A stretch of DNA of 64,000 bases from Maritimibacter sp. Lineage in GTDB: Bacteria > Pseudomonadota > Alphaproteobacteria > Rhodobacterales > Rhodobacteraceae. How positions within the stretch are numbered: position 1 is the stretch's first letter; each line of letters opens with the position of its first letter. Of the stretch, positions 1 through 60,335 are shown one piece after another. The notes below the pieces were generated by a model. That model ran no database searches. It worked only from the letters and a program-made list of their open reading frames with translations, and was not told the DNA's origin. The position numbers were made by a program, and so were the translations under genes. The DNA is taken from positions 248,001 to 312,000 of the forward strand of contig NZNT01000019.1 in assembly GCA_002695005.1 (NCBI GenBank). Direction: 5' to 3'.

Positions 1-1
1 G

Positions 2-874: not shown

Positions 875-893
875 GCTTGTCCCGGGGGGGACC

Positions 894-3802: not shown

Positions 3803-3820
3803 GAACAAGGGACGCGAGAC

Positions 3821-4909
3821 ATGCTCTACTGGTTGGCCGAACTCTCTGACGGCGGCGACTTCTTCAACCTGTTTCGCTACATCACCTTTCGTGCTGGTGC
3901 CGCGTTCTTCACCGCCCTGATCTTCGGCTTCATCTTCGGCCGTCCGCTCATCAACCTTCTGAAACGACGCCAGAAATCCGGCCAGCCGATCCGCGCCGAC
4001 GGCCCCGAAGGGCACCTTGAAACCAAGGCGGGGACCCCGACGATGGGGGGGGCGCTGATCCTTGGCGCGATCACCGTCTCGACGCTGCTCTGGGCGCGTC
4101 TCGACAACGGCTTCGTCTGGGTCGTGCTCGGCGTGACGCTGAGTTACGGGCTGATCGGCTTTGCCGACGACTACAACAAGATCACGAAGAACGACAATTA
4201 CGCAGGGCTGTCGGGCAAGATGCGCCTCTTCCTCGAGGGGATGATCGCGCTCGCAGCGGCTTACGTCATCATGACCTTGCATCCGGACGAACTGACCGGT
4301 CGGCTGGCGTTTCCGGTGTTCAAGGACCTGCTCCTGAACCTCGGCCTCTTCTTCCTGCCGATGGCCATGTTCATCATGGTTGGCGCGGCCAATGCCGTGA
4401 ACCTGACCGACGGTCTCGACGGGCTCGCCATCATGCCCGTGATGATCGCGGCGGCCACACTGGGCGTCATCGCCTATGCTGTGGGCCGGGTCGACGTGAC
4501 GGAATACCTGGACGTCCATTACGTTCCCGGCACCGGCGAACTGCTCGTGTTCGCAGCCGGTCTGATAGGTGGGGGCCTCGGGTTCCTGTGGTACAACGCC
4601 CCGCCCGCTGCGGTCTTCATGGGCGACACCGGCTCGCTTGCGCTGGGCGGCGCACTCGGCGCGGCGGCCGTGTCGATGAAGCACGAACTGGTGCTGGGCA
4701 TCGTCGGCGGGCTGTTCGTGGTCGAGGCGCTCTCGGTCATCATCCAGGTGCTCTATTTCAAGCGCACCGGCAAACGGGTCTTCCTGATGGCGCCGATTCA
4801 TCACCATTTCGAGAAGCGCGGCTGGGCCGAACCTCAGATCGTCATCCGGTTCTGGATCATCTCGCTGGTGCTCGCGCTGATCGCGCTCTCCACCCTGAAG
4901 CTGCGCTGA
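3821..4909 (+). CDS. mraY: Phospho-MurNAc-pentapeptide transferase MraY
   Basis: Polytopic inner-membrane enzyme that moves phospho-MurNAc-pentapeptide onto undecaprenyl phosphate, making lipid I. The 362-residue protein has about ten hydrophobic segments, the signature [13 protein letters not shown] and the loop motif [12 protein letters not shown], plus the C-terminal [11 protein letters not shown] motif. The start ATG has an AAGGGA-type ribosome binding site. Oddly, the next gene is convergent and its stop codon lies only 2 bp away, leaving no room for a dedicated terminator. Confidence 0.97.
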
Positions 4910-4911
4910 GG

Positions 4912-6081
4912 TCAGTCGCCTCCGACCACGCGCAGGCGCGGGGTTTCAGGCTCTGACTGCATCGCGCGCGCCGGGGCGAGGCTGGCCGCCACCAGCGGTT
5001 TCGCGTTCTTCTTGTGCCGACGGACGAGTTCCTTGATCTGCGCGCCCGCTTCCACGATCGGGCGGGCGGGAGTGAACGTACGGCCCGTCAGCGCTAAGAC
5101 CGCCCTCCGGTCCGCCGGGTCAAGTCCGTCCCATGTCCCCTTGTCCGGCAACAGGCTTTCCGCCGGGGCGCCATCCGCCCAGATCACCTCATGCCGGTCG
5201 AACAGCAGGTGGCAATAGATTATCTGGGCGTCCTTGCGATGCCGGGTGATGCCCGGCAGACCGATGAGCCGCTTGGCTGGCACCAGTATTTCGCGCGCGC
5301 CGAAGATACGCTCGGCGATCTTCGAGGCCACCAGCACACGGTGCTGCGGGGAGACGATCAGGTCACGCGCAGGCATTCCGGCGCCGAGCGACCCGCGCCG
5401 GATTTTTACCGGAGCATTGCGCTTGTCGCGCATCCGGTTGTCCAGCGGCACGGTTTTGGCGCGCGCCCAGCGAACGGCTTGCGCACCGTGATCTAGCGTC
5501 AGAACGAGGTCGCCGGGCGTGATGTCCTCGACGGGACACGGCCCGCCGGGCGTGTCGATGCGCGTGCCTGCCGCGAAACAGACCGTGACATTGTTGTTCT
5601 GGTCGAGGTCGATCTTGACGTCGTTGCCGGCCGGGTCCCAGTCAAGGCTGCGGACCTGGATCGAGGTGATGTCGGGCAGGTCGCCGACGCTGTCGTCCAC
5701 CGCCATGAAATACCGGTCGCTGCCGCCGCCCAACGGGCTCGCGATGATGAAGACGACTTGGGACGCCCCGCTGTCGCCGCTGAGATTGGCGGCATTTGCG
5801 CCGCCGTTGTAGGTAACGGTGACCAGCGTGTTGTCGGGATCGGCGAGCTGGATGTTGTAGTCGACGCCGTCGATGGTCAAGACGCCGTTGTCCGCGTCCG
5901 CCGTTTCGTTGAGTTCGCCGATCCGCGTGGAGCTGTTGCCGCCTTCGTCGTCCGTATAGGTGGCGTTGTCGACAAAGCCGATGATATCCCCGCCGCCGCC
6001 CGGCGTCGTGGTGAACGTCCTGTTCTCGCCGATGCTCGAAAGCTCGACCAGGTCGTACAGAGGCGTGTTGTTGGCACCCAT
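4912..6081 (-). CDS. Hint-domain (Hedgehog/intein-like) protein inserted in the dcw cluster
   Basis: The 389-residue protein has no predicted signal peptide. Its N-terminal ~165 residues are acidic and rich in Asp, Asn and Gly, resembling secreted Ca-binding or adhesin-like modules. A Hint_2-type domain starts at Cys168 (CFAAGTRIDTPGG) and contains the block-B-like SPQHRVL and the C-terminal block CHLLFDRHEVIW. A terminal Asn nucleophile with a C-extein is not apparent, so self-cleavage is possible but full splicing is unlikely. ATG 6081 is preferred over GTG 6096 because GGAG sits 6 nt upstream. It is the only - strand gene in the dcw cluster, convergent with mraY and divergent from murD. 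Substrate and function are unknown; export by a type I system is inference only. Confidence 0.85.
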   Translation of the reverse strand: MGANNTPLYDLVELSSIGENRTFTTTPGGGGDIIGFVDNATYTDDEGGNSSTRIGELNETADADNGVLTIDGVDYNIQLADPDNTLVTVTYNGGANAANLSGDSGASQVVFIIASPLGGGSDRYFMAVDDSVGDLPDITSIQVRSLDWDPAGNDVKIDLDQNNNVTVCFAAGTRIDTPGGPCPVEDITPGDLVLTLDHGAQAVRWARAKTVPLDNRMRDKRNAPVKIRRGSLGAGMPARDLIVSPQHRVLVASKIAERIFGAREILVPAKRLIGLPGITRHRKDAQIIYCHLLFDRHEVIWADGAPAESLLPDKGTWDGLDPADRRAVLALTGRTFTPARPIVEAGAQIKELVRRHKKNAKPLVAASLAPARAMQSEPETPRLRVVGGD

Positions 6082-6260
6082 CAGGCACTCCGGCACTTAC
6101 TACTGGTTTTCCTTACCGTCGAGGGATGGGCCGTAACGGGCAGGAATGTGGCTTTTTGCGGGAATCTTACGCCGCTACTGGTTAACGACAGGCTGAACCG
6201 GGCAGCCTATGGTCAATTCTGGCGCCGGGGGCTACCAATCGGCGCAAAGTGAGGTGTTCC
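6082..6260. promoter_or_regulatory. Divergent intergenic region between the Hint gene and murD
   Basis: The 179-bp spacer must carry promoters for the Hint gene (leftward) and murD (rightward), because the Hint insertion cuts murD off from mraY transcription. It is less GC-rich than the flanking genes and contains GTTAAC near 6178. No convincing -35/-10 pair could be assigned by eye, so this is inferred from gene orientation. Confidence 0.5.
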
Positions 6261-7664
6261 ATGATCCCCGTTCGCGGATATGAAGGCGAGAGAGTCGCGG
6301 TCCTGGGTCTCGGTCGCTCCGGGCTCGCGACAGCCCGTGCGCTGGCCGCCGGAGGCGCCATGCCCCTGTGCTGGGACGACGGCGCCGAGGCGCGAGGACG
6401 GGCCGAAGAGGCCGGGCTCACGCTCCACGATCTGGGCCGTCAGAACGCCTTCGATGGTGTGGCGGCCCTCATCACCAGCCCCGGAATCCCGCATCTCTAC
6501 CCGGCAACGAACCCGCACATCCTGCGCGCCTACAAGCTTGGCATCCCGGTCGACAACGACATCGGCCTGTTCTTCCGCTCGCTCGGATCGGGCGAGTGGG
6601 ACGAGATGGACCAGCCCCCACGCGTGGTGGCCGTCACCGGGTCGAACGGGAAGTCCACGACCTCGGCCCTGATCCATCATGTGCTGGAGGAAGCCGGGAA
6701 GCCCGTGCAGTTGGCTGGAAACATCGGGCGCGGCGTGCTCGATATCGAGCCGCCGGTGGACGGCGAAGTGATCGTGCTGGAGCTGTCGAGCTACCAGACA
6801 GACCTCGCCCGCGCGCTCACGCCGGACGTGGCCGTGTTCACGAACCTGTCTCCCGACCACCTCGACCGCCACGGTGGGCCGGGGGGCTACTTCGCGGCCA
6901 AACGGCGGCTCTTCGCCGAAGGCGGACCGGACCGGGCCGTGATCGGCGTGGACGAACCCGAGGGGCTTTTCCTCGCGGGTCAAATGGCGATGGGCCCGGG
7001 GGACGACCGGGTCATCCGCGTGTCGGTAGAGGAAAAGCTGACAGGTCCCGGCTGGCTCGTCCATGCGCGCAAGGGGTTTCTCGCCGAGACGCGCAAAGGC
7101 AAACAGGTGGGCTCCATCGACCTGCGCCAGATCGCGAACCTGCCCGGCACGCACAACCACCAGAACGCCTGCGCGGCTTATGCCGTTTGCAGGACACTGG
7201 GCCTGTCGCCCAAGGTGATCGAGGCGGCGTTCCACAGATTCACCGGCCTGCCGCACCGGTCCCAACTCGTCGCCGAGGCGGGCGGGGTGCGCTATGTGAA
7301 CGACTCCAAGGCCACGAACGTGGATGCCGCACTCATGGCACTGCTCGCCTTCCGAAATATCCGCTGGATCGTCGGCGGGCTTCAGAAGGAAGGCGGGCTC
7401 GCGGGTCTCGCCCCCGGCCTCGCCAACGTGACCAAGGCCTATGTGATCGGGCGCGAGGCGGAGGCCTTTGCCCGCGATCTGGGCGACGTGGAGGCACAAG
7501 TCTGCAAGACCATGCAGGCCGCCGTCGCCGCCGCTATGGCCGAGGCGGGCGAAGGCGATACGGTGCTCCTCGCCCCGGCCGCCGCGAGTTTCGACCAGTA
7601 CGACAGTTTCGAGAAGCGTGGCGAGGACTTCATCGCCCGGGTCAGGGCCGGGCTTGGCTCATAG
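6261..7664 (+). CDS. murD: UDP-MurNAc-L-alanine:D-glutamate ligase MurD
   Basis: Cytoplasmic ligase adding D-Glu, the second stem-peptide residue. The 467-residue protein has an N-terminal Rossmann segment (VLGLGRSG), P-loop TGSNGKST at 126-133 and the C-terminal Mur domain. ATG 6261 is chosen over the in-frame GTG 6249 because GAGG at 6251-6254 forms a well-spaced ribosome binding site for it. Its 3' end overlaps the next gene by 11 bp. Confidence 0.96.
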
Positions 7665-8586
7665 CGCCTATCGTCCGGGCGTCGGCATCTCGCTCAAGAT
7701 CGGGGCCGTGCTGTGCTTTACCCTGATGGGCGCGCTCATCAAGGGGACCGGGGGCCGCGTGCCCACGGGCGAAGTCGTGTTCTTCCGCTCGCTCCTCGCC
7801 GTGCCGGTGATGATCGCTTGGCTCGCTTATGTCGGCCAGTTGTCCGAAGGGGTGCGCACCACCCGCCCGCTTGGCCATTTGTGGCGCGGGCTCATCGGCA
7901 CGACGGCGATGGGGCTCATGTTCACCTCGCTCATGCTCCTGCCGCTGCCCGAAGTGACGGCAATCCAGTACGCAACACCCATGTTCATCACGCTGCTCGC
8001 GGCGTTGATGCTGGGCGAGCGTATCCGGCTGTTTCGCATGACGGCGGTCATCATCGGTCTCGTCGGTGTGATCGTCGTGCTCTATCCCCGCCTCGGCGGG
8101 CTGGGGGCCGTGGGCGGTTCGGAAACGCTGGGCGCGGTCCTCATGCTCACCTCGACCCTTGCCGCGGCGCTGGCCCAGGTGCAGGTGCGCCGTCTGGTGG
8201 CGACCGAACGACCGGCAACCGTCGCGCTCTATTTCTCATTCTCCTCGACCTTCTACGCACTCCTGACCCTGCCCTTTGGCTGGGTTCTGCCGGGCGCGCA
8301 GGACATGGCGATGCTGGTGGCCTGCGGGCTGATCGGGGGTGTGGGCCAAGGGATGCTCTCGGCCTCGTACCAATACGCTCCGGCGTCGGTCGTCGCGCCA
8401 TTCGATTATGTGTCGATCTTCTTCGCAACCGCACTGGGCATGGCGTTTTTCGACGAGGTTCCCACGCGCACGACGCTCGCCGGTGCGGCCATCGTGATCG
8501 CCGCCGGCGTGCTCATCATCTGGCGCGAACGTCAGCTCGGCATGAACCGCGAAGCGTCCAAGCGGGCGAAACAACCGCCGACGTGA
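7654..8586 (+). CDS. EamA/DMT-family transporter
   Basis: Inner-membrane protein of about 310 residues with ten hydrophobic segments arranged as two EamA repeats, typical of drug/metabolite exporters; the substrate cannot be told. The best start is TTG 7654, overlapping the murD stop; it gives a short polar N-terminus followed by [14 protein letters not shown] as the first membrane helix, which fits the family. The frame stays open much further upstream, but that part is a murD shadow. Insertion between murD and ftsW suggests co-transcription with wall genes rather than a wall function. Confidence 0.88.
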
Positions 8587-8595
8587 CCTGACGGC

Positions 8596-8714
8596 GCGCG
8601 GCTGGGGCCGCGCACAGGATTTGCGCGAGCCTGCACTTGCGTGCAGGCACACGCGGCGACGGGGGAGGCCAGCCTCCCCCGAACCCCCTCCGAAGTATTT
8701 GAGGAACAGAGAAG
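8596..8714 (+). repeat. Intergenic stem-loop array plus CCGAAGTATTT core, copy 1
   Basis: Three perfect hairpins follow one another: 8596-8613 (7-bp stem, TGGG loop), 8629-8648 (8-bp stem, TTGC loop) and 8661-8680 (9-bp stem GGGGGAGGC). Next comes the core at about 8686-8714: CCGAAGTATTT, two bases, GGAAC and AGAGAAG. The same architecture recurs twice in this window. It lies between the EamA gene and ftsW and may act as a terminator or RNA-processing element; that role is inference. Confidence 0.75.
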
Positions 8715-8809
8715 ACAGGACGTGGCTCTATGCAGCCCAAAGGTTTCGCGCTAGAGTGAGGCCAGACCCGGAAAACCGGGCGTATTGAGGCAGTATCGGG
8801 CGGTTTCTC

Positions 8810-9979
8810 ATGACCGAAATGGTGTATGGCGCGGTGCCGCGGCAGGCGAAGGATCCTATTCTTCCCCGCTGGTGGCGAACGATCGACAAATGGTCGGTCT
8901 CTTGCATTCTTCTTCTGTTCGCGATCGGCATTCTGCTGGGCCTCGCTGCCTCGCCGCCACTGGCGCAACGCAACGGGCTCGATCCGTTCTACTACGTCGA
9001 ACGGCAGCTCCTGTTCGGGTTTCTCGCCTTCGTCGTGATGTTCGCGACGACGATGATGTCGCCCCTCATGGTGCGACGGCTTGGTGTACTGGCGTTTTTC
9101 GTCGTGTTCGTGGCGCTGATCGGGCTGCCGTTCTTCGGCACCGACTTCGGCAAGGGCGCGGTGCGCTGGTATTCCCTCGGCTTTGCGTCCTTCCAGCCGT
9201 CGGAGTTCCTCAAGCCGGTCTTCGTGGTCGTGATCGCTTGGCTCATGGCCGCGAGCCAGGAGATTCAGGGCCCGCCGGGAAAATCAATGTCACTGGTCCT
9301 GACGCTCATAATCGTGGGCTTCCTCGCCATGCAGCCGGACTTCGGCCAGTCGGCACTGGTGCTGTTCGGTTGGGGGGTGATGTATTTCCTCGCGGGCGCG
9401 CCCTATGTTCTGATCGTGGGCGTGGCGGCGCTCGTGGTGCTTGCGGGTTTTGCCTTTTACGAAAACTCCGAACATTTCGCGCGCCGGATCGACGGGTTCC
9501 TGAACCCTGAGGTCGACCCGACCACGCAGCTTGGCTACGCGACCAATGCGATCCGTGAAGGCGGGTTCTTCGGCGTGGGCGTGGGCGAGGGGCAGGTGAA
9601 ATGGTCGCTCCCCGACGCCCATACGGATTTCATCATCGCGGTCGCGGCCGAGGAATACGGCCTCATCCTCGTCATGCTCATCATCGCGCTTTACGCCACC
9701 GTCGTCGTGCGCTCGTTCCTGCGGCTGATCAACGAACGTGACCCGTTCATCCGGCTGGCCGGCACCGGCCTTGCCGCCATGTTCGGCGTTCAGGCGCTCA
9801 TCAACATGGGTGTGGCTGTGCGCCTCTTGCCCGCCAAGGGGATGACGCTACCTTTCGTGAGCTACGGGGGCTCGTCGCTCATCGCGACCGGCATCGCCGC
9901 GGGGATGCTGATCGCGTTCACGCGGACACGGCCCCAGGGCAAGATCGAGGACTTCCTCAGGCAACGAGGACATACATGA
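8810..9979 (+). CDS. ftsW: Septal peptidoglycan glycosyltransferase FtsW (SEDS family)
   Basis: Polytopic SEDS protein that polymerises lipid II into glycan at the septum together with FtsI. The 389-residue protein has about ten membrane segments and SEDS signatures such as QPDFGQSA, the PDAHTDFI loop and the C-terminal [13 protein letters not shown] 8810 lacks a strong Shine-Dalgarno sequence. Its TGA overlaps the murG ATG (ATGA, 9976). Confidence 0.96.
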
Positions 9980-11103
9980 CCAACAAGGCACCGCTGCTGA
10001 TCATCGCGGCGGGAGGGACGGGCGGACACATGTTCCCCGCGCAGGCGCTGGCCGAGGCCATGCTCGCGCGTGGCTGGCGTGTGAAACTGTCGACAGACGT
10101 CCGGGGCGCGCGCTACGCGGGCGGATTTCCGGACGCGGTGGGGATCGAGGAGCGGTCGTCGGCCACCTTTGCGCGGGGCGGGCCCCTCGGCAAGCTCGCT
10201 GTACCGTTTCGCGTCGCGGGCGGTGTTCTGGGGGCTTTGGTGCGTATGCTTACGGACAGTCCTTCTGCCGTGGTCGGATTCGGCGGGTATCCTTCTATCC
10301 CGGCGCTGACCGCAGCGACGCTCCTGCGACTGCCACGCATGATCCACGAACAGAACGGCGTGCTGGGAACGGTGAACAAGCTCTTCGCCAAGCGCGTGCA
10401 CATCCTCGCCTGCGGCACATGGCCGACCGCGCCGATCCCGGACGGGGTGGAGGCGGTTCATGTGGGCAATCCCGTGCGCGCCGCCGTGCTGGAGCGCGCT
10501 GGTGCGGGCTATATCCCGCCCGGTGACTATCCCATGACGCTCCTCGTTATCGGTGGTTCGCAAGGTGCGCGGGCGCTGTCGGACAACGTGCCGGCCGCCA
10601 TCGCGGCGCTGCCGGATCACATCCGCGCCCATGTCTCGGTCGCCCATCAGGCGCGAGACGAAGACGGGGAGCGTGTGCGCGACTTCTACGCCGCACAAGG
10701 TATCCGGGCGGATGTGGAGCCATTCTTCGCTGACGTCCCGCGCCGGATCGCCGAGAGCCAGCTGGTCATCAGCCGCGCGGGGGCTTCTTCCGTGGCCGAT
10801 ATCTCGGTCATCGGGCGGCCCGCGATCCTCATCCCCTATCCCCACGCTACCGGCGATCACCAGACAGCGAATGCTCAAGGGCTGGTCGAGGCGGGTGGGG
10901 CCGTGCGCATCCCCGAGACACAGCTGGAACCCGCCATGTTGTCGGAACACATCGCCAGTGTGCTGGACAATCCCGACGGCGCATTGCAGATGGCGCTCGC
11001 CAGCTTGTCCGTCGGCAAGCCCGAAGCCGCCGAAACGCTCGCGCGACTGGTGGAAATGCTGGCCGACAAGACGGACAAAGCCGCCGAGGGACAGGCGGCG
11101 TGA
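9976..11103 (+). CDS. murG: Lipid II synthase MurG
   Basis: Membrane-associated GT28 glycosyltransferase that adds GlcNAc to lipid I. The 375-residue protein has the glycine-rich GGTGGH at residues 13-18, the second G-loop GGSQGA and the UDP-GlcNAc-binding region around [11 protein letters not shown]. It is translationally coupled to ftsW by a 4-bp overlap, and murC starts 45 bp downstream. Confidence 0.97.
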
Positions 11104-11148
11104 GGCGGCCCCGGGACCGGGGCGCTTCGCAATGAGAAGGGACAGGCG

Positions 11149-12543
11149 ATGAACGCAGCGGCGACGAAACTCCCCACCGAGATGGGGGCCATTCACTTCG
11201 TGGGCATTGGCGGCATCGGCATGTCTGGGATTGCGGAAGTGCTGCTGAACCACGGCTACCGGGTGCAGGGGTCGGATCTGAAGACCTCGCCGATCACCGA
11301 ACGGCTGGCTGGCCTCGGGGCGGAAATCTTCATCGGTCAGCGCGCCGAAAACCTCGAAAACGCGGAGGTCGTGGTCATTTCCTCCGCGATCAAGCCGGGC
11401 AACCCGGAACTCGATACCGCCCGTAAGACGGGACTGCCCGTCGTGCGCCGGGCCGAAATGCTGGCCGAACTCATGCGACTCAAATCCAACATCGCGGTCG
11501 CGGGCACCCACGGCAAGACGACGACGACGACGTTGGTCGCGGAGCTCCTTGTCTCCGGCGGCATCGACCCGACCGTGATCAATGGCGGGATCATTCACGC
11601 CTATGGCTCGAACGCGCGGATGGGGCAGGGCGAATGGATGGTCGTTGAAGCCGACGAAAGTGACGGCACGTTCAACCGGCTTCCCGCCACCATCGCCATC
11701 GTCACCAACATCGACCCCGAGCACATGGATCACTGGGGCACCGAAGAAGCGCTGCATCAGGGCTTTTACGACTTCGTGTCGAACATCCCGTTCTACGGCC
11801 TCGCTGTGTGCTGCACCGATGACCCGGATGTGCAGACGCTTGTGGGCAAGGTGACGGACCGCCGCGTCGTGACCTTCGGCTTCAACGCCCAGGCCGATGT
11901 GCGCGCGGTGAACCTGACCTACGAGGCGGGGATCGCGCAGTTCGACATCGCGATGCCCGACCTGACCATCGAGGGCTGTACCCTCCCGATGCCCGGCGAT
12001 CATAACGTGTCCAACGCGCTCGCCGCCGTCGCCGTGGCCCGCCATCTCGGCATGAAATCCGCCGAGATCAAGGCGGCCCTCGCGGCCTTTGGCGGTGTGA
12101 ACCGCCGCTTTACCCGGGTCGGGCTGTGGAACGGCGTGCCGATCATCGACGATTACGGCCACCACCCGGTCGAGATCGCGGCTGTGCTCAAGGCCGCGCG
12201 GCAGGCCGTGAAGGGCCGCGTCATCGCGGTCCACCAGCCGCACCGCTACACCCGACTTCATACGCTGTTCGAAGACTTCTGCACCTGCTTCAACGAGGCC
12301 GATGTAGTGGGCATTTCCGAGGTCTACGCGGCCGGCGAAGACCCGATCCCCGGCGCGACCCGCGACGATCTGGTGGCGGGTCTCACCGCCCACGGCCACC
12401 GCCATGCTTTCGCGGTCGACACGGAAGCGGACCTCGCCGAGCTTGTGAAACGCGAAGCGAAAGAGGGCGACATCGTCGTCTGTCTGGGCGCTGGCACGAT
12501 CTCAACCTGGGCGCGTGAGCTGGAAGAAAAACTCACTGCCTGA
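11149..12543 (+). CDS. murC: UDP-N-acetylmuramate:L-alanine ligase MurC
   Basis: Cytoplasmic ligase adding the first stem-peptide residue. The 464-residue protein has the N-terminal GIGGIGMSG loop, P-loop GTHGKTTT at 119-126, EADESDGTF and the HQPHRYTR motif. A good ribosome binding site (AGAAGGGA) precedes ATG 11149. A GC-rich hairpin follows the stop. Confidence 0.97.
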
Positions 12544-12569
12544 GCCGCGAGCGGGTTGACCCGCGCGGC
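12544..12569 (+). terminator. Possible hairpin terminator after murC
   Basis: GCCGC (12544-12548) pairs with GCGGC (12565-12569), enclosing GCGGG-TTGA-CCCGC. The stem is strong, but only a short T-poor tail follows, so it may be an attenuating or RNA-stabilising hairpin rather than a full terminator. It marks the end of the murG-murC segment before three unrelated genes. Confidence 0.45.
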
Positions 12570-12620
12570 CCTCGGTTTAGGTCGGTGACTGACCGTTCAC
12601 CCCACAACCCCGGAGGCCCC

Positions 12621-13460
12621 ATGTCCGACGCGCCGCATATTGTTCCCACGACCACGCTCCTGAACGGGGTGGAAATGCCTCGTCTCGGTCTCGGCACCTG
12701 GCCCATGAACGACGACGAAGCCGCACGCGCTGTCGCCTCGGCCCTCGACCTTGGCTACCGGCTGGTGGACACGGCCGAGAATTACGGCAACGAGGCGGGT
12801 GTGGGCGAGGGGATCAAGGCATCCTCGGTGCCGCGCGACGAGGTTTTCGTAACCACCAAGTTCAACCGGAATTGGCACAGCGTCGCGGGCGCGCGGCAGG
12901 CCTGCGAGGCGAGCCTCGCGCGGATGGGCCTCGACTACATCGATCTGCTCCTGATCCACTGGCCGAACCCGGAGCAGGGCGCTTATGTCGAAGCGTTCGA
13001 TGGCATCACCCGGCTTGTGGACGCAGGGCTCGTGCGCGCGGCAGGCGTGTCGAATTTCAAGCCACACCATCTGAACGAGCTGTTCGAGGCGGGCTTCACC
13101 CCGGCGGTGAACCAGATTCAGATCGACCCCCATCATCTGCGGTCCGAAGAAGTCGCGATCCACCGTGAAAAGGGCATCGTGACCGAAGCCTGGAGCCCCA
13201 TCGGCCGCGCGGGCGACCTGCTGACTGAGCCGGCGATCAAAAGCGCAGCGCAGGCCCACGACAAGACGCCCGCCCAGATCGTCCTGCGCTGGCATGTCCA
13301 GTCGGGGCACGTCCCCGCGCCGAAATCCGCCGATCCGACGCGGCAGGCCGAAAACCTCGATGTCTTCGGCTTCGACCTCACCGATACGGAAATGCAGGCG
13401 CTCGGGGCGCTCGACCGGCCCGATCCGAACATGCTCGACGCCGACAGCTTTGGTCACTGA
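12621..13460 (+). CDS. Aldo/keto reductase (AKR5-like, 2,5-diketogluconate reductase type)
   Basis: NADPH-dependent carbonyl reductase of 279 residues with an (alpha/beta)8 barrel. The catalytic tetrad is visible as Asp50 and Tyr55 (LVDTAENYG), Lys80 (VTTKF) and His113 (LLIHWPNP). The in-frame GTG 12585 is rejected because GGAGG at 12612-12616 serves ATG 12621. It lies between murC and murB in a three-gene insertion, and no wall role is expected. The substrate is unknown. Confidence 0.9.
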   Translation: MSDAPHIVPTTTLLNGVEMPRLGLGTWPMNDDEAARAVASALDLGYRLVDTAENYGNEAGVGEGIKASSVPRDEVFVTTKFNRNWHSVAGARQACEASLARMGLDYIDLLLIHWPNPEQGAYVEAFDGITRLVDAGLVRAAGVSNFKPHHLNELFEAGFTPAVNQIQIDPHHLRSEEVAIHREKGIVTEAWSPIGRAGDLLTEPAIKSAAQAHDKTPAQIVLRWHVQSGHVPAPKSADPTRQAENLDVFGFDLTDTEMQALGALDRPDPNMLDADSFGH

Positions 13461-13526
13461 TAACAACCTGCCCTTGACCGCGCCCGGCGAAGGGCGGACC
13501 CTGTGCGCGAGATCAGGGAGGATGCC

Positions 13527-13979
13527 ATGACGACCGAGACCAAGCCCCGCGTGCGGGAACTGTCGCGTTACGATTTCCCCGATCTGCACGAGCTTCTGAC
13601 GCATTACAGCGGTGGCAAGCCGGTTCCCAGCGGGGCCGAGGGCGAGGCGATTCTCTATGAAATCCTCGCCATGCCGGGCACATCGCTTTTCGGTGGAGAA
13701 TGCGAAGGCCGGATCGTCTCCACCGCGATGCTGTCGATCCTGCCGAACCTCACCTTCGGGGGTCGCCCGCTGGCACGGATCGAGAATGTCGTCACGCTGC
13801 CCGAGTACCGGGGCCGTGGATTCGCGGCTGCGGTCATGGAGCGGGCCATCGAAAAGGCCAAGTCCAAGGACTGCGCGGATATATCGCTCCTGTCCCCCAA
13901 GTCCCTGAAAGCCGAAGGGTTTTACCGCAAGCTCGGCTTCACCGACGACACCGTGGGCCTGCACCTCTCCATCGGCTGA
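13527..13979 (+). CDS. GNAT-family N-acetyltransferase
   Basis: A 150-residue acetyltransferase. Motif A is seen as VVTLPEYRGRGFAAAVME, with the Q/RxxGxG/A acetyl-CoA pyrophosphate loop (YRGRGFA), and the C-terminal FYRKLGF motif is present. ATG 13527 is chosen because AGGGAGG lies 6 nt upstream; the upstream GTG 13503 lacks this. The acceptor substrate is not predictable. Confidence 0.88.
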   Translation: MTTETKPRVRELSRYDFPDLHELLTHYSGGKPVPSGAEGEAILYEILAMPGTSLFGGECEGRIVSTAMLSILPNLTFGGRPLARIENVVTLPEYRGRGFAAAVMERAIEKAKSKDCADISLLSPKSLKAEGFYRKLGFTDDTVGLHLSIG

Positions 13980-14029
13980 CTTGCCCCCCGGCCCGCGGAC
14001 CACCAAGGTCGCCGCAGGACGGGACAGAC

Positions 14030-15220
14030 ATGGCAGACACGCTACCGAAACGACTGAGCACCGGGCTCCTGACCGCCTATGGCGTCGGGATCATGGTGGG
14101 CGCGGGGATCTATGTCCTCGTTGGCCACGCGGCCGGGGCTGCGGGCATCTGGGCCCCGCTGGCCTTCCTGCTTGCAGGCCTCGTGGCGGTGCCCTCGGCG
14201 CTCTCTTTTGCAGAACTCAGCTCGCGCATACCCGAGGCTGCGGGCGACAGCGCCTATGTCGAACACGGTCTGCACATGCACTGGCTGGCGGTGCTGGTCG
14301 GCTTCATCAACATTCTGGCGGGCATCATCGGGGGCGCGGCCGTATTGCGCGGCGGGGTAGGCTACCTGACCGCGCTCGTGCCGATCGACCCCACGGTCGC
14401 CATGCTGGCGCTCGGCGGGGCCCTCACCGTGATCGCCGTTCTGGGCGTTGTCGAGAGCCTGTCCTTCGCCGCCATCCTCACGCTCGTCGAGGTCGTGGGC
14501 CTCGCCCTCGTTATCTGGGCGGGCTTCAGCGCGACGCCGAGCGGAGACTGGACGGCGCCCACATCCCTCCACCTGCCGGGTGTGCTCGCCGCCTCGATCT
14601 TTGCCTTTTTCGCATTCCTCGGCTTCGACGACCTCGTGAACATGGCCGAAGAGGCGCGCGACCCGGCGCGCCAGATGCCGCGCGCGATCCTGTGGTCGCT
14701 GGCGATCACCTCCGCGCTCTACGCGCTCGTCACCTGGGCCGCCGTGCGGGCCGTGCCGGTGGCCGACCTTGCCGCGTCGGAACGCCCGCTCGCGCTGGTC
14801 TGGACCGCCGCGACCGGCGCGCCGGCGGCGTTCCTGTCCTCCATCGCGGTGGCTGCGGCCCTGAACGGCGTGCTGGCCCAGATCGTCATGGCCGCCCGCG
14901 TGTTCTTCGGCCTCGGGCGCCGCTCGCGCTGGCTGTGTGTCTTCAACCGGACCAACCCGCGGTTCGGAACTCCACTGCTCGCCACCTGCGTGACCGGCGT
15001 GCTTACCACCGCCGCCGCCCTCGCGCTGCCCGTCGCGACGCTGGCGGAATACACCACGCTCGCGCTGCTCGTCGTCTTCTCCATCGTGAACGCCGCGCTG
15101 ATCGGCGTGAAACGCTCGGGCGTCCTGTCGCCGTTTTCGGTCCCCCGCATCGTGCCATGGCTGGGCCTCGCCGGAGCACTGGCGCTGTTCGCGGTGAACA
15201 TGGCGGCCTTCCTGACCTGA
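14030..15220 (+). CDS. APC-family amino acid permease
   Basis: Inner-membrane transporter of 396 residues with about eleven to twelve hydrophobic helices. The N-terminal LLTAYGVGIMVGAGIYVLVG carries the APC unwound-helix GAGIY motif, and FFAFLGFDDLVNMAEE in the middle matches helix 6 of the family. It is slightly short for the family (usually 430-480). Amino acid or amine uptake is likely; the specific substrate is unknown. Confidence 0.9.
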   Translation: MADTLPKRLSTGLLTAYGVGIMVGAGIYVLVGHAAGAAGIWAPLAFLLAGLVAVPSALSFAELSSRIPEAAGDSAYVEHGLHMHWLAVLVGFINILAGIIGGAAVLRGGVGYLTALVPIDPTVAMLALGGALTVIAVLGVVESLSFAAILTLVEVVGLALVIWAGFSATPSGDWTAPTSLHLPGVLAASIFAFFAFLGFDDLVNMAEEARDPARQMPRAILWSLAITSALYALVTWAAVRAVPVADLAASERPLALVWTAATGAPAAFLSSIAVAAALNGVLAQIVMAARVFFGLGRRSRWLCVFNRTNPRFGTPLLATCVTGVLTTAAALALPVATLAEYTTLALLVVFSIVNAALIGVKRSGVLSPFSVPRIVPWLGLAGALALFAVNMAAFLT

Positions 15221-15318
15221 CGCGCGGCCGGGGGCGAAACAAAAACCCATTGGGGCCGCAGTTTCGCCCGGTTTCGCGGACAGTCTGCCCGGACCAGCGC
15301 CATGCAGGAGACCGCGCC

Positions 15319-15576
15319 ATGTCCTTATCCCTCATCGCAGGATGCCTTTGGGTCCTCGCCGCCTCGCTCATCGCCTTTCTGCCGATCCGCAAACAGATCA
15401 TTCCGGGCACGATCCTTGGCCTCTCCGCCTTCGCGCTTCTCGGCTGGATCGGGTACCAGAACGGCTGGATCTGGACGGCGGTCGGCACTTTCGCGTTCGT
15501 CTCGCTCTTCCGCAACGGCTTCAAGGCGATCCCGGCCATGATGCGCGGTGAGAAGCTGGAAATCCCCGAGCACTGA
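15319..15576 (+). CDS. DUF2484 small membrane protein
   Basis: An 85-residue protein with three hydrophobic segments (residues about 2-20, 26-45 and 48-62). Sequence and location match the DUF2484 family, which in Rhodobacterales is typically encoded just before murB. GCAGGAGA upstream gives the ribosome binding site for ATG 15319. Its function is unknown; a wall-related role is inferred only from this neighbourhood. Confidence 0.85.
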
Positions 15577-15579
15577 TCC

Positions 15580-15655
15580 TCTTCTTCGTTCCCCAAATAC
15601 TTCGGGGGTGCGGGGGCAGCGCCCCCGCGCGGGTCGGATGGCGCGCAAGCGCCAT
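15580..15655 (-). repeat. Intergenic stem-loop array plus CCGAAGTATTT core, copy 2 (inverted)
   Basis: Read on the - strand, the element runs hairpin 15638-15655 (7-bp stem, GCAA loop on +), hairpin 15610-15628 (GCGGGGGC stem, 3-nt loop), then the core at 15580-15608: CCGAAGTATTT, two bases, GGAAC and AGAAG. It is inverted relative to copies 1 and 3 and to the flanking + strand genes DUF2484 and murB, arguing against a simple one-way terminator tied to the upstream gene. Confidence 0.75.
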
Positions 15656-15700
15656 TCGAAATCTTGCCACCGCACCCGGTCCACGCTACCTCCGTGCCCC

Positions 15701-16630
15701 ATGACCATCAAGCTCCCCCCCGTCCGAGGTACCCTCACCGAAAACCGCGACCTGTCCTCGCTGACCTGGATGCGGGTGGGCGGACCGGCGGACTGGCTGT
15801 TTCAGCCGGCCGACGAAAAGGACCTTGCCGACTTCCTGCGCGCGCTCGACCCCGACGTTCCGGTCTTTCCGATGGGCGTCGGCTCCAACCTCATCGTGCG
15901 CGACGGCGGCATCCGGGGCGTGGTGATCCGGCTCGGACGCGGCTTCAACGGGATCGAGATCGACGGCACCACCGTGACTGTCGGCACCTCCGCGCTCGAC
16001 GCCCATGTCGCGCGCAAGGCGGCGGCGGCGGGCGTGGACCTCACTTTCCTGCGCACAATCCCCGGTGCCATCGGCGGCGCACTTCGCATGAACGCGGGCT
16101 GCTATGGCCGCTACACTGCCGATGTTTTCCGGTCCGCCCGCGCGGTGACGCGGGGCGGGGAGGTGGTGACGCTCACCGCCGACGACCTCAACTTTCGCTA
16201 CCGCCAGTCGGACCTGCCCGAAGGCACGGTCCTCACATCCGCCACACTCGAGGGCCCGGCGGGCGACCCCGAGGCGCTGGAGGCGATGATGGCAGACCAG
16301 CTTGCCAAGCGCGACGCGACCCAACCGACGAAAGACCGCACCGCCGGATCGACATTTCGGAACCCGGCGGGCTTCTCTTCGACGGGCCGCGCAGACGACA
16401 CCCATGACCTCAAGGCATGGAAGGTGATCGACGACGCAGGAATGCGTGGCGCGATGATCGGTGGCGCGCAGATGAACGAGAAACACTCGAATTTCCTCAC
16501 CAACACCGGCACGGCCACGGCGCAGGACCTTGAATCTTTGGGAGAGGAGGTCCGGAAAAAGGTTTACGAAACCAGCGGCCTGACGCTAGAATGGGAAATC
16601 ATGCGCGTGGGCGAACCCGCGGCACAATAA
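15701..16630 (+). CDS. murB: UDP-N-acetylenolpyruvylglucosamine reductase MurB
   Basis: FAD- and NADPH-dependent enzyme that completes UDP-MurNAc. The 309-residue protein has the FAD-binding segment [30 protein letters not shown], the catalytic Ser217 in GSTFRNP and the C-terminal EKHSNFL. The frame is open upstream through repeat copy 2, but ATG 15701 fits the family N-terminus. No strong Shine-Dalgarno sequence is visible. Confidence 0.96.
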
Positions 16631-16675
16631 CGACAAGCTGAACGGCCACCATAAGGCCGTCGCGAGAGGCAGACA

Positions 16676-17596
16676 GTGGGCGATGCGAGCAGGCATTCCC
16701 CGATAGTCGCAGTTTTGAAAGGTGGTCCTTCCGCAGAGCGGGAGGTGTCGCTGAGTACAGGGCGTGAATGCGCTGCGGCATTGCGGGCAGAAGGCTATGA
16801 GGTGGTCGAGGTCGATGCCGGACCCGACCTCTGCGCGCGCCTGCAAGAGATTTCACCGGACATCGTGTTCAACGCGCTCCACGGTCGCTGGGGCGAGGAT
16901 GGCTGTGTGCAGGGCATCCTTGAATGGATGAAGCTCCCCTATACCCATTCCGGCGTGCTGGCCTCGGCGCTCGCGATGGACAAGGAACGCTCGAAAGAGG
17001 TGTTCCGCGCGGCCGGACTGCCAGTCGCCGAGAGCCGCCTCGCCTGGAAGGCCGAGATCGAAGGGCACCATGTCATGGAACCGCCCTACGTCGTGAAGCC
17101 CTATAACGAGGGCTCGTCCGTAGGCGTCTACATCGTGGCCGAAGGCGCGAACACGCCGCCCCGTCTGGCCGAGGATCTGCCCGACACGCTGATGGTCGAG
17201 AAATACGTTCCGGGCCGCGAACTGACCGTCACCGTCATGGGCGACCGGGCGCTGGGCGTGACCGAGATCATCTCGGACGGCTGGTACGACTACCATGCCA
17301 AATATGCCGAGGGCGGTTCGCGCCACGAAGTGCCAGCGAACCTGCCCGACCAGATCACTGCGACCTGCCTCGACATCGCCCGCCGCGCCCATGATGCGCT
17401 CGGGTGCCGCGGCGTGTCGCGTTCGGATTTCCGCTGGGATGAAGACAAGGGGCTCGACGGGCTGATCCTGCTCGAACAGAACACGCAGCCCGGCATGACG
17501 CCCACCTCGCTCACGCCCGAACAGGCGGCGAAAGCGGGCATCGATTTTGGCCCGTTGTGCCGCTGGATGGTGGAGGATGCCTCGTGCAATCGGTAA
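16676..17596 (+). CDS. ddl: D-alanine-D-alanine ligase
   Basis: ATP-grasp enzyme of 306 residues forming the D-Ala-D-Ala used by MurF. Family signatures are [16 protein letters not shown] at the N-terminus, [22 protein letters not shown] in the ATP-grasp loop and the metal and substrate site [13 protein letters not shown]. The start is GTG 16676, with GAGAGG upstream. Its 3' end overlaps the likely ftsQ start. Confidence 0.96.
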
Positions 17597-18486
17597 GTGC
17601 GGAACGTCCCGGCGTCACGCCAAGGCCCGTGCGCCGCGATCCGGCACCGTCGCGCTGGGCCTACCGGGTCCACCGCATGTGGCTCACTCCTTTTTACCGC
17701 GCCATGTTGCGCATCGGCCTGCCGGTGTTTCTCGTGGTCGCTCTTGCGGGCTGGTACGTCTCCAACCCCACCAACCGCTTCGCCATCGCCGAAAAGGTGA
17801 GCGAGATCCGCCGCTCCGTCGAAACCCGGCCCGAGTTTACCGTAAAGCTCATGGCCGTCGAAGGCGCGTCGCCGGTGGTGGAAAAGGCGATCCGAGAAAT
17901 CGTGGGAAGCGAATTTCCGATCTCCTCCTTCGACCTCGACCTCGACGGGCTGCAACGCACCATCGCCGCGTTCGACGTGATCGAGGACGTGGCGCTCCGG
18001 GTCCGCCCCGGCGGCGTGCTTGAGGTGGCCGTCGCCGAGCGTGAGCCGGTCATGCTGTGGCGCCATGCCAGCGGGATCGAACTGCTCGACGCCACCGGGC
18101 ACCGCGTGGCCTCGCTCATGGACCGGGCCTCGCGCCCGGACCTGCCGCTGATCGTCGGGCAGGGCGCCCGCGACGCAGTGGCCGAGGCCGAGGCATTGTT
18201 CGACGCCGCCGGGCCCGTCGCGCACCGTTTGCGCGGGCTGGTCCGCGTCGGGTCGCGGCGCTGGGACATCGTGCTCGACCGCGACCAGCGTATTCTTCTT
18301 CCCGAAATCGCCCCGGTCGCGGCGCTTGAGCAGGTGCTCGCGCTCGATGAAGCGCAGGATCTCCTCGCCCGCGACCTCACCCATATCGATATGCGCAACC
18401 CCGCCCGCCCGACGCTTCGCATGACCGACCCCGCGGTCGACGAACTGCGCCGCATCCGGAGCCTCGACAACGGAGTACCAAGATGA
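17584..18486 (+). CDS. ftsQ: Cell division protein FtsQ
   Basis: Bitopic divisome protein of 300 residues. It has a basic cytoplasmic N-terminus, one membrane helix at about residues 43-58 ([16 protein letters not shown]), a POTRA domain at about 80-150 and a beta domain. GTG 17584 is preferred to GTG 17557 because GGAGG lies shortly before it; it overlaps ddl by 13 bp. The stop overlaps the ftsA ATG (ATGA, 18483). Confidence 0.95.
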
Positions 18487-19817
18487 CCGAGCTCTACGAA
18501 CAACAGCGTGCCATGCGCGCCATGCGAAAGGCCGCCATGCAGCGCGGCGTGATCGCGGTTCTGGACATCGGCACCTCCAAGATCGGTTGCCTCGTCCTGC
18601 GCTTCGACGGGCCCGAACGGACGGCGGCCAACGACGGGGTCGGCTCGCTCGCTGGTCAGTCGGGTTTCCGTGTCATCGGTGCGGCAACGACCCGCTCGCG
18701 CGGCGTGCGCTTCGGCGAGATCGACGCGATGCAGGAGACGGAACGCGCGATCCGCACCGCGATCCAAGCGGCCCAGAAGATGGCGAATATCCGCGTTGAC
18801 CATGTCATCGCGACCTTCTCCGGTGCCAATCCCCGCAGCTACGGCGTCGCGGGCGACGTCGAGGTGGCCGGAACCTCCGTGATCGAGGATGACATCGCGC
18901 GCGTCATGGCCTCCTGCGACGTGCCGGACTTCGGTGAGGGGCGGGAGGTGCTGCACGCCCAGCCGGTCAACTTCGCGCTCGACCACCGCTCCGGTCTGTC
19001 CGACCCGCGCGGGCAGGTGGGCAAACGGCTTGCCGTGGACATGCATCTGCTCACGATCGACGCCGCGACGGTGCGCAACGTGGCGTATTGCATCAAGCGC
19101 TGCGACCTCGAGCTCGCGGGCCTCGCCTCCTCCAGCTATACGGCGGCCCTCGCGTCGCTCGTCGAGGACGAGCAGGAACTGGGTGCGGCCTGCATCGACA
19201 TGGGGGGCGGCGCGACCGGCGTCTCGATCTTCATGAAGAAACACATGATCTACGGCGACTCCGTGCGCCTTGGCGGCGATCACGTCACATCGGACATCTC
19301 CAAGGGGCTCCAGATCCCCATGGCCACGGCCGAACGGATCAAGACCTTCTACGGCGGCGTCTTCGCCACCGGCATGGACGACCGCGAAATGATCGAGATC
19401 GGCGGCGACACCGGCGACTGGGAGCACGACCGGCGCACGGTCAGCCGGTCCGAGCTTATCGGCATCATGAAACCGCGTGTCGAAGAGATCCTCGAAGAGG
19501 TCCGCGCGCGCCTCGACGCCGCGGGATTCGACCATTTGCCGAGTCAGCAGATCGTTCTGACCGGCGGCGCAAGCCAGATTCCGGGTCTCGATACCCTCGC
19601 GCCCCGGATTCTCGGCCAACAAGTGCGCATCGGACGCCCCTTGCGCGTTCAGGGCTTGCCACAGGCCGCCACAGGTGCTGCATTCGCCTCGGCGGTGGGA
19701 CTTTGCCTGTTCGCAGCATCGCCGCAGGACGAATGGTGGGATTTCGACATACCAGCCGAATCCTATCCATCGCGCAGCCTGCGGTGGGCCGTGAAATGGT
19801 TCAAGGATAACTGGTAG
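18483..19817 (+). CDS. ftsA: Cell division actin homologue FtsA
   Basis: Actin-like ATPase that tethers FtsZ to the membrane. The 444-residue protein has the phosphate 1 motif VLDIGTSK, the phosphate 2 region CIDMGGGATGVSIF, the adenosine motif LTGGASQIPG and a C-terminal amphipathic helix SLRWAVKWFKDNW, the membrane-targeting sequence. An intrinsic terminator follows the gene. Confidence 0.97.
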   Translation: MTELYEQQRAMRAMRKAAMQRGVIAVLDIGTSKIGCLVLRFDGPERTAANDGVGSLAGQSGFRVIGAATTRSRGVRFGEIDAMQETERAIRTAIQAAQKMANIRVDHVIATFSGANPRSYGVAGDVEVAGTSVIEDDIARVMASCDVPDFGEGREVLHAQPVNFALDHRSGLSDPRGQVGKRLAVDMHLLTIDAATVRNVAYCIKRCDLELAGLASSSYTAALASLVEDEQELGAACIDMGGGATGVSIFMKKHMIYGDSVRLGGDHVTSDISKGLQIPMATAERIKTFYGGVFATGMDDREMIEIGGDTGDWEHDRRTVSRSELIGIMKPRVEEILEEVRARLDAAGFDHLPSQQIVLTGGASQIPGLDTLAPRILGQQVRIGRPLRVQGLPQAATGAAFASAVGLCLFAASPQDEWWDFDIPAESYPSRSLRWAVKWFKDNW

Positions 19818-19824
19818 ACACCAG

Positions 19825-19833
19825 ATATCCACA
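19825..19833 (+). promoter_or_regulatory. Near-consensus DnaA box upstream of ftsZ
   Basis: ATATCCACA differs from the DnaA box TTATCCACA at one base. It sits just after ftsA and before the terminator, about 220 bp upstream of the ftsZ start. A single near-match is weak evidence alone, but an exact box lies on the other side of ftsZ. Confidence 0.3.
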
Positions 19834-19854
19834 ATTCCGCAAAATCTCGCCGCT

Positions 19855-19900
19855 AAAGCCCGGTAATCCACCGGATTTAGGGGCTTTTTCGTGTTTTTTG
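19855..19900 (+). terminator. Intrinsic terminator after ftsA
   Basis: AAGCCC at 19856-19861 pairs with GGGCTT near 19881-19886, with an inner AATCC/GGATT helix, followed by a T-rich tail (TTTTTCGTGTTTTTT). This is the clearest terminator in the dcw cluster. It separates ftsA from ftsZ transcription. Confidence 0.8.
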
Positions 19901-20053
19901 CGTGACCTAGCGTCGCGTAGCGGTTAGGCTGATGGGAAATAGGCAGATAACCGGCAAAGATCGGGACAAGGCCAGCAAAAACTGGCACAACAAGGACAGG
20001 TCACTTACGGACACGTCAGAGACGACAAGTCGAAAAGGACAGGCGGAAAGATC
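19901..20053 (+). promoter_or_regulatory. Inferred ftsZ promoter and leader region
   Basis: About 150 bp between the ftsA terminator and the ftsZ start, which must contain an ftsZ promoter if the terminator works. GGCGGAAAG gives the ribosome binding site. No clear -35/-10 pair or full CtrA site (TTAA-N7-TTAA) was found by eye. Confidence 0.45.
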
Positions 20054-60213: not shown

Positions 60214-60335
60214 GTGCGGCGCAAGCGCCGCACGCTGTGCAAGCCGCGCCTGAAGGCGCGGCGGTGCGGGGGCCAGCCCCCGCGGCCGCATTCGGGAAAT
60301 GCGGCCACCCCCGAAGTATTTTTGGAACAGAGAAG
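60214..60335 (+). repeat. Intergenic stem-loop array plus CCGAAGTATTT core, copy 3
   Basis: Four perfect hairpins in a row: 60214-60233 (9-bp stem), 60243-60262 (8-bp, TGAA loop), 60266-60283 (GCGGGGGC stem) and 60284-60306 (GGCCGCATT stem, CGGGA loop). The core follows at 60308-60335: CCGAAGTATTT, two bases, GGAAC, AGAGAAG. It fills the space between the convergent glcB and cupin genes, where it could terminate both. Confidence 0.8.

Follow-up and report, generated by a model that had tools for sequence, protein, structure and literature searches.

Composite sites in the window and copies of their core

The window, which is the whole 64,000-nt stretch of Maritimibacter DNA that was analyzed, carries three intergenic sites in which hairpins precede a conserved core on the same strand (Table 1). 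Site 1 is flanked by an EamA transporter gene and an FtsW/RodA gene and site 2 by a DUF2484 gene and a MurB gene; site 3 has a malate synthase gene on one side and, on the other, a cupin gene on the opposite strand (Pfam assignments). A joint pattern, CCCCGAAGTATTTnnGGAACnnAGAAG with up to three mismatches, matched the window at exactly these sites and had no match in 100 shuffles, which bears out the positions 8596-8714, 15580-15655 (inverted) and 60214-60335 of a preliminary description. The perfect stems reported there are real, with z = −4.9 for site 3, −4.8 for site 1 and −2.4 for site 2 in folds of single-stranded DNA. Site 2 is, as had been described, oriented opposite to both neighboring genes, and its core lies 4 nt from the stop codon of the plus-strand gene ending at 15576. 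An Rfam 15 scan of the window gave no match at gathering score, and a terminator scan of window positions 1-20000, which contain sites 1 and 2, listed neither of them.

Table 1 Parts of the three composite sites, in window coordinates
Site	Feature	Position	Strand	Basis
1	Outer hairpin	8596..8613	+	DNA fold
1	Second hairpin, some positions unpaired	8624..8655	+	DNA fold
1	Purine-arm (R) hairpin CGGGGGAGGC-CA-GCCTCCCCCG	8660..8681	+	Fold; mirror listing; strict mirror test
1	Third strand CCCCCTCC, mirror of the Y-arm	8684..8691	+	Mirror listing; strict mirror test
1	Class A core	8690..8714	+	Pattern search
2	First hairpin TCG-A-(stem)-C-CGA, A.C mismatch	15634..15659	-	DNA fold
2	R-hairpin GCGGGGGC-GCT-GCCCCCGC	15610..15628	-	Fold; mirror listing
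2	Third strand ACCCCCG	15603..15609	-	Mirror listing
2	Class A core	15581..15605	-	Pattern search
3	Outer hairpin, 8 bp, loop AAGC	60214..60233	+	DNA fold
3	Second hairpin	60243..60262	+	DNA fold
3	R-hairpin GCGGGGGC-CA-GCCCCCGC	60266..60283	+	DNA fold; mirror partner listed
3	Helper hairpin, between R-hairpin and third strand	60284..60306	+	Fold; G003 comparison
3	Third strand CCCCC, mirroring the 3′ arm and continuing into the core	60308..60312	+	Mirror listing
3	Class A core CCGAAGTATTTTTGGAACAGAGAAG	60311..60335	+	Pattern search

The core recurs throughout the genome (G000). In the 4.27 Mb searched (30 contigs), the core with its AGAAG tail was matched 65 times with up to three mismatches from the class B core, 32 and 33 times on the two strands, against no match for the reversed pattern, so that the recurrence on which the preliminary description had depended is borne out. 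One class A copy with an altered tail was added, giving 66 copies for analysis. They fall into two strict core classes, CCGAAGTATTTnnGGAAC and CCGAGGTATTTnnGGACC: class A (CCGAAGTATTTnnGGAACnnAGAAG) comprises 24 of the 66 copies and class B (CCGAGGTATTTnnGGACCnnAGAAG) 42, and the class-defining bases at positions 5 and 17 are mixed in none. Counted over 65 copies (one with three mismatches was excluded), positions 4-11, 16-18 and 22-24 are invariant or show at most one exception per class, positions 19-20 are mainly GA or AG, and positions 12-13 vary freely. At least two more copies (L161, L164) show a third class, CCGGGATATTT..GACCGGAAAGA, so that 66 is a lower bound. A looser 18-nt core pattern had one control match; 11 places without the AGAAG part (C26:336770, C14:143506, C19:98428, C20:116465, C25:51649, C26:284000, C29:304622, C29:331118, C17:20967, C19:33809 and C29:45806) were excluded from the 66 copies. 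Tandem hairpins followed by a core, as the preliminary description had it, are thus present, but a single core understates a repeat with several core classes.

The cores of L163, L161 and L164 can be read with one or three bases in place of the free dinucleotide, and the length of this spacer may vary too. At L058:2989 the AGAAG directly precedes a predicted gene's ATG and might there be part of a ribosome-binding site. A small dyad within the core (GU/AC or GGU/ACC) was considered as an RNA hairpin; it fits the first dialects and is ruled out by addresses such as GCCAAGAAGAAG and GGCGAGAAGAAG.

In the aligned copies, read on the core strand from the stop codon of the upstream gene, one or two hairpins come first. 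In most copies the next part is a hairpin with a purine 5′ arm (GGGGG, GGAGGGG, GGGGGAGG, GAGGGG and GAGAGGG are among them) and a loop such as GCT, TCT or CA. It is followed by a short linker or by an entire extra perfect hairpin, and then by a pyrimidine run, the third strand, whose end is the first CC of the 25-nt core. The last stem is thus followed by the third strand and then by GAAGTATTTnn, with no U-run directly behind it.

The first hairpin is of a mismatch type in 22 of the 66 copies in G000 and in 12 of 45 in G003, a sister genome with 47 matches, of which 45 copies, spread over 40 stretches, were analyzed. Here TCG or GCG is followed by an unpaired base x, a variable stem, an unpaired base y and CGA or CGC, so that the mismatch sits three pairs from the base. 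The combinations x.y are mostly A.C, C.T, C.C, T.C and C.A, with one G.G and no G.T, which suggests that the core strand is the one folded there. Four G003 elements (L103, L106, L109 and L138) have runs of 61-140 N inside or beside the hairpin part; these may be assembly gaps at hairpins that are hard to sequence, or withheld stretches.

Third strands that mirror the hairpin arm

The third strand is the mirror image of the 3′ arm of the purine-arm hairpin, not its direct copy, and the three strands co-vary. An arm CTGGAGGGGC, for example, is found with the 3′ arm GCCCCTCCAG and the third strand ACCTCCCC, and an arm GGGGGAGGC with the third strand CCCCCTCC. For an unbiased test, the hairpin was chosen by stem length and purine content alone and the third strand was ignored. 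Mirror agreement in G000 (57 of 66 copies with a hairpin) was then 0.873 compared to 0.540 for a direct copy; when third strands were reassigned at random between copies, the mean was 0.698, and none of 5000 permutations reached the observed value. The corresponding values for G003 (32 of 45 copies) were 0.819 and 0.559, again with 0 of 5000 permutations. Arms containing A gave 0.894 for the mirror and 0.537 for the direct order (n = 37). A strict test for a perfect 7-nt mirror is passed by site 1 only among the three window sites, and strict mirror hairpins were absent from six shuffled windows. At site 3 the third strand is a plain C run, in which mirror and direct copy are indistinguishable. 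The purine-arm hairpin is not universal: by the same rule 9 of the 66 G000 copies lack one, as do 13 of the 45 G003 copies and 8 of the 80 loci in the further set described below, and two G147 stretches (L090 and L091) have a core without it.

To read the code, 147 hairpins were compiled (57 from G000, 39 from G001, of which 40 of 44 matches were analyzed, 33 from G003 and 18 others), leaving out the outermost purine. Arm G stands opposite C in 665 of 671 cases, the exceptions being five T and one A, and arm A opposite T in 90 of 102, A in 10 and C in two. The further set consists of 80 listed loci of at least 116 stretches from a core pattern scan of another genome collection. By their titles they belong to genera that include Ruegeria, Shimia, Roseovarius, Jannaschia and Paracoccus, or to family-level bins of this group; two are titled no more closely than Alphaproteobacteria. 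A hairpin was present in 72 of the 80, and at positions outside the search pattern G stood opposite C in 88 of 88 cases and A opposite T in 11 of 14 and opposite A in three. Taking both sets together, the bases that replace T at arm A are 13 A and two C (p = 0.007 against an even split), a count drawn from few informative A positions (102 + 14) in copies related by descent. The rule can extend into the core: three G000 copies have a core that starts with CTG, two of them with the matching arm GGGGGAC and one (L077) without. The first CC of the core belongs to the mirror strand as well. Neither this mirror-image strand nor the second core class had been recognized in the preliminary description, nor had the unpaired mismatch of some first hairpins or the class change in place described below.

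An intrastrand triplex is made up of a purine arm, its complement and a mirror-image third strand, and most copies carry these blocks (R, Y and mirror third strand) on one strand. The core strand would give a pyrimidine-motif triplex with C or T in the third strand, and the opposite strand a purine-motif triplex with G.G-C, A.A-T and also T.A-T. The exceptions favor the purine motif: A over an A-T pair is no triple of the pyrimidine motif, and when read on the other strand it becomes T.A-T, which the purine motif accepts. RNA is reported not to form purine-motif triplexes (PMC4666352, available part). As the substitutions follow the purine-motif code, the pattern points to DNA, and selection would act on DNA rather than on RNA structure. 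The selection on structure proposed in the preliminary description is thus supported, by compensated pairs in the helper hairpin of site 3 and by the three-way co-variation, and its "RNA or DNA" narrows, through the substitution pattern, toward DNA. Triplexes would then form in the cells themselves. Folding of the first hairpin on the core strand sits uneasily with a triplex on the opposite strand, and the two are not reconciled.

Placement, addresses and change between relatives

Placement was judged with gene calls from the codon model of this analysis, not from annotation. No copy in G000 overlaps a predicted gene (all distances ≥0); in the further set 4 of 80 matches lie inside one. The 62 copies with both neighbors stand in 29 convergent, 30 tandem and three divergent gaps, compared to 11, 39 and 10 among all 60 gaps of the window (p = 0.001 for convergent enrichment). 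The contrast is stronger with window gaps of at least 60 nt (2 convergent, 24 tandem and 10 divergent), a threshold that favors element-bearing gaps. In 10 of the window's 11 convergent gene pairs the gap measures −4 to 64 nt, too short for an element. The further set shows the same preference, with 23 of 71 copies convergent compared to 50 of 288 of their gaps (p = 0.008), and 4 of 71 divergent.

The upstream gene is codirectional with the core in 50 of the 62 copies, and the core then lies 34-177 nt behind its stop codon. Toward the facing gene, the end of the core is within 12 nt of the stop codon for 29 of 41 copies in G000 and for 17 of 37 from the further set. In tandem gaps, copies run with rather than against the genes at 21:9 here and 30:14 in the further set, together 51:23 (p = 0.0015). 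The nine inverted copies among the 30 in tandem gaps support the earlier remark that a simple terminator role cannot account for every copy. A replication-oriented signal was also considered; none is evident, the G003 copies being divided 22 and 25 between the strands.

Distribution was followed with a loose frame, CCnnnnTATTTnnGnnnnnnnGAAG, that is, CCnnnnTATTTnnG(7 nt)GAAG. Of 295 genomes of the family, which the titles of the further set indicate to be Rhodobacterales (Rhodobacter/Roseobacter group), 203 have at least one match, 109 at least five and 32 at least 20. Single matches are close to chance level, since the reversed control reaches two on one strand, and because some dialects escape the frame, a genome with no match to it need not lack the element. 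Other families of the class had matches in 32 of 113 genomes (at most two in all), compared to 25 of 113 with a control match. The search among relatives that had been proposed thus finds the element widespread in the family and other families at control level. Among the matches listed, fixed words at positions 4-6 and 15-21 form an address, genome by genome; several genomes have two or three addresses, and positions 12-13 are not fixed. Matches from a weak search of plasmids fell in Roseobacter, Antarctobacter, Phaeobacter and Paracoccus records, and of four plasmid stretches examined one, from Antarctobacter, has the frame, twice. In IMG/VR, thirteen stretches of the viral collection (L219-L231) have a related frame, CCCCGGRRTATTTnnG(7)GAAG, and may represent prophages, flanking chromosome or chance matches; the stricter class A/B frame had no match there.

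The 66 copies of G000 were compared with the 40 copy-bearing stretches of G003. Both flanks match such a stretch for 19 copies, two of which (L052 with L110 and L082 with L138) have one flank that matches only at a distance. At five of these 19 loci the class has changed in place between A and B, and at four a class A core has become GAAAC; the rest are unchanged, one with the same class A-like core and nine with B or B-like cores. The class can therefore switch at a shared locus while the neighboring hairpins remain homologous. The helper hairpin of site 3, GGCCGCATT/AATGCGGCC here, is GGTCATGTT/AACATGACC in G003; four of its nine pairs have changed on both sides and all nine still pair, the compensatory change that the preliminary description had looked to.

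Sites 1 and 3 were compared with their orthologous sites. In G003 site 1 is empty, with 29 nt between the flanks compared to 148 here; no such core is seen at its orthologues in G002, G004 and G007, with hairpin-like remnants kept in G004, and G001 and G006 could not be judged. The core of site 3 is absent from G005 (42 nt compared to 146). With a view to the terminal inverted repeats and target duplication of MITEs, the two empty loci were inspected; their flanks look replaced, not cleanly split.

At the site 1 orthologue of G005 a different core occurs as an inverted pair, catatttggggcacgatgaaa ... tttcatcgtgccaaaaatatg (L146, 1364-1500), which could form one long hairpin. Facing pairs of elements with about 150 nt between the cores are seen in G000 at L078:8186/8335 and L080:2995/3151 and are kept in G003 (L113 and L139); a GC-rich word, gggggcggggtccacccc, is shared beyond at least one core of the L078/L113 pair.

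Interpretation and comparison with known repeats

We interpret the element, with about even confidence, as a REP-like, non-autonomous DNA repeat that combines an intrastrand-triplex hairpin with an address read by a putative factor. Its copies lie in the gaps behind genes and would form a family of the Rhodobacterales. When the strands part during supercoiling, replication or transcription, the strand opposite the core could fold as third strand, purine arm and pyrimidine arm into a purine-motif intrastrand triplex with the core alongside. A putative sequence-specific DNA enzyme or binding protein would read the core, as an address, beside the triplex, and this recognition would drive gain, loss and in-place replacement of copies and so produce the uniform addresses within each genome. 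Copies may survive behind genes because they do least harm there. Sequence-specific recognition seems needed because plain recombination would also fix positions 12-13, and the difference in address between sister species suggests a fast-evolving reader. No mobilizing gene was identified in G000, and RAYT (Y1_Tnp, PF01797) has no match in this genome, which is 99.81% complete; PF01797 was matched in 5 of the 21 genomes that were searched, including two from the same genus, and in 5 of 14 control genomes. Mobility is accordingly argued from presence and absence at two sites, and class change amid homologous hairpins resembles conversion or selection more than it does a new insertion. Mobility or conversion would then be what drives the pattern. 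Further points weigh against this reading: a purely selfish DNA element need not show the with-gene bias in tandem gaps, a minority of copies have no purine-arm hairpin, the mismatch of some first hairpins points to folding of the core strand, and stability of the triplex is put in doubt by the E. coli triplex repeat, for which in vivo footprinting gave no support (PMC4666352, available part).

The same placement could mean that the element acts as RNA at the 3′ end of the upstream transcript, which would fold into the hairpins and a pyrimidine-motif RNA triplex and either end transcription, through a weak GAAGUAUUU hybrid behind the triplex, or protect the mRNA 3′ end from exonucleases. We allow this, the main rival, a real but minor chance. 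The codirectional gene ahead of most copies and the roughly 2:1 bias in tandem gaps keep it alive, as do the avoidance of G.T on the core strand in the first-hairpin mismatch and the spacing, which resembles that of an intrinsic terminator in that about 9 nt separate the last base of the third strand from the end of TATTT. It does not explain why just about 66 copies of two classes serve 4.27 Mb, why nearly a third of the tandem-gap copies are inverted, or why at least two copies (L045:2999 and L081:2990) are already preceded by what appears by eye to be a hairpin with a T-run. Nor do the window's convergent gaps, nearly all too short for an element, fit a general 3′-end device; the A-facing-A substitutions misfit a pyrimidine-motif RNA triplex, G-U on the core strand is not clearly enriched (5.9% vs 4.7% in G000, 7.7% vs 6.2% in G003), and termination offers no obvious use for a genome-specific address.

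Convergent enrichment and the scarcity of divergent copies in both sets would also suit a fixed site of a chromosome-organizing or topological protein between converging transcription units, with the structure absorbing supercoils; REP/BIME and gyrase offer a parallel. The near-invariant core positions and the occurrence of both orientations agree with it. We nevertheless judge it quite unlikely, since sites of a conserved protein would not be expected to differ between sister species or to come in two or three versions per genome, two tested sites were gained or lost within the genus, and the even strand distribution in G003 gives no sign of a replication-oriented signal. That the copies are neutral relics, homogenized by ordinary recombination, with the mirror a by-product of low-complexity G/C runs, is very improbable. 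Many arms are indeed plain G5, in which mirror and direct order look the same (sites 2 and 3 among them), and the strict 7-nt test singles out site 1; yet arms with A keep the mirror order, homogenization would have fixed positions 12-13, and shuffled windows yield no strict mirror hairpins. A wider form of the DNA-repeat reading, which we consider unlikely, would be an order-wide DNA addressing system, in which a purine-motif DNA triplex, maintained through three-way compensatory change, serves as a structural handle, positions 4-6 and 15-21 as the address, and a putative enzyme inserts, exchanges or processes DNA behind genes.

If this wider, order-wide reading is true, the conserved triple code, including an alternative that the purine motif alone allows, would be evolutionary evidence for a functional intrastrand DNA triplex in living cells. 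Whether such triplexes matter in cells is an open question, and one that could be tested genetically in ordinary marine and soil bacteria because the triple code co-varies across loci and genera. The genome-specific addresses predict a co-evolving reader protein.

We found no description of this repeat in the available portions of a chiefly open-access literature: the accessible parts of PMC8632094, PMC12306157, PMC1852404, PMC2864571, PMC2817692 and PMC4666352 do not describe it, and terms for it are absent from PMC5217627. Three known systems invite comparison.

DNA uptake sequences of Neisseriaceae exist in dialects, with a word that is uniform per genome and changed between relatives. The present element likewise has a short genome-uniform word, often near gene ends. 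Unlike uptake sequences, which generally number 1,000 or more, it has tens of copies, and it is long and structured with a free dinucleotide inside the word; identity with an uptake sequence is rejected, as the copies are too few. Uptake signals do occur in terminators (PMC1852404, available part).

REP/BIME elements with RAYT, as far as the accessible part of PMC2817692 describes them, share with the present repeat its intergenic palindromes, tens of copies, several classes per genome, compensated stem changes and inverted pairs. Unlike REP, the element has a much longer conserved word placed 3′ of the hairpins, and a mirror third strand. The REP head GT(A/G)G within 6 nt before the first hairpin was found in only 1 of the 22 mismatch-hairpin copies in G000 and 1 of the 12 in G003, and mobilization as a RAYT-driven REP is rejected on the missing Y1 transposase match in G000.

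The closest design is that of the PIT/TM_ECO/boxC repeat of E. coli, as given in the available part of PMC4666352: a GC-rich intergenic repeat of hairpin and mirror third strand with purine-motif intrastrand triplex potential, in tens of copies of two types, with some inverted pairs and with sites that vary between relatives. That repeat forms a triplex in vitro and no stable one by in vivo footprinting, and its function is unassigned. Its consensus, CCCTCNCCC-N3-6-GGGNGAGGG-N3-GGGNGAGGG, does not describe the present element: TM_ECO is ordered Y-R-R (class II), whereas the purine-rich strand here, which lies opposite the core, is R-R-Y (class I). TM_ECO has a single conserved stem sequence, no strand-orientation bias and a more frequent position upstream of ORFs; here the stems vary and co-vary and the copies lie behind genes. 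Only here, in this comparison, is a genome-specific core fused to the third strand and preceded by extra hairpins. The element is thus distinct from PIT/TM_ECO/boxC, despite the triplex design, in block order, variable stems, attached address and gene-end bias, and its dynamics resemble those of REP elements.
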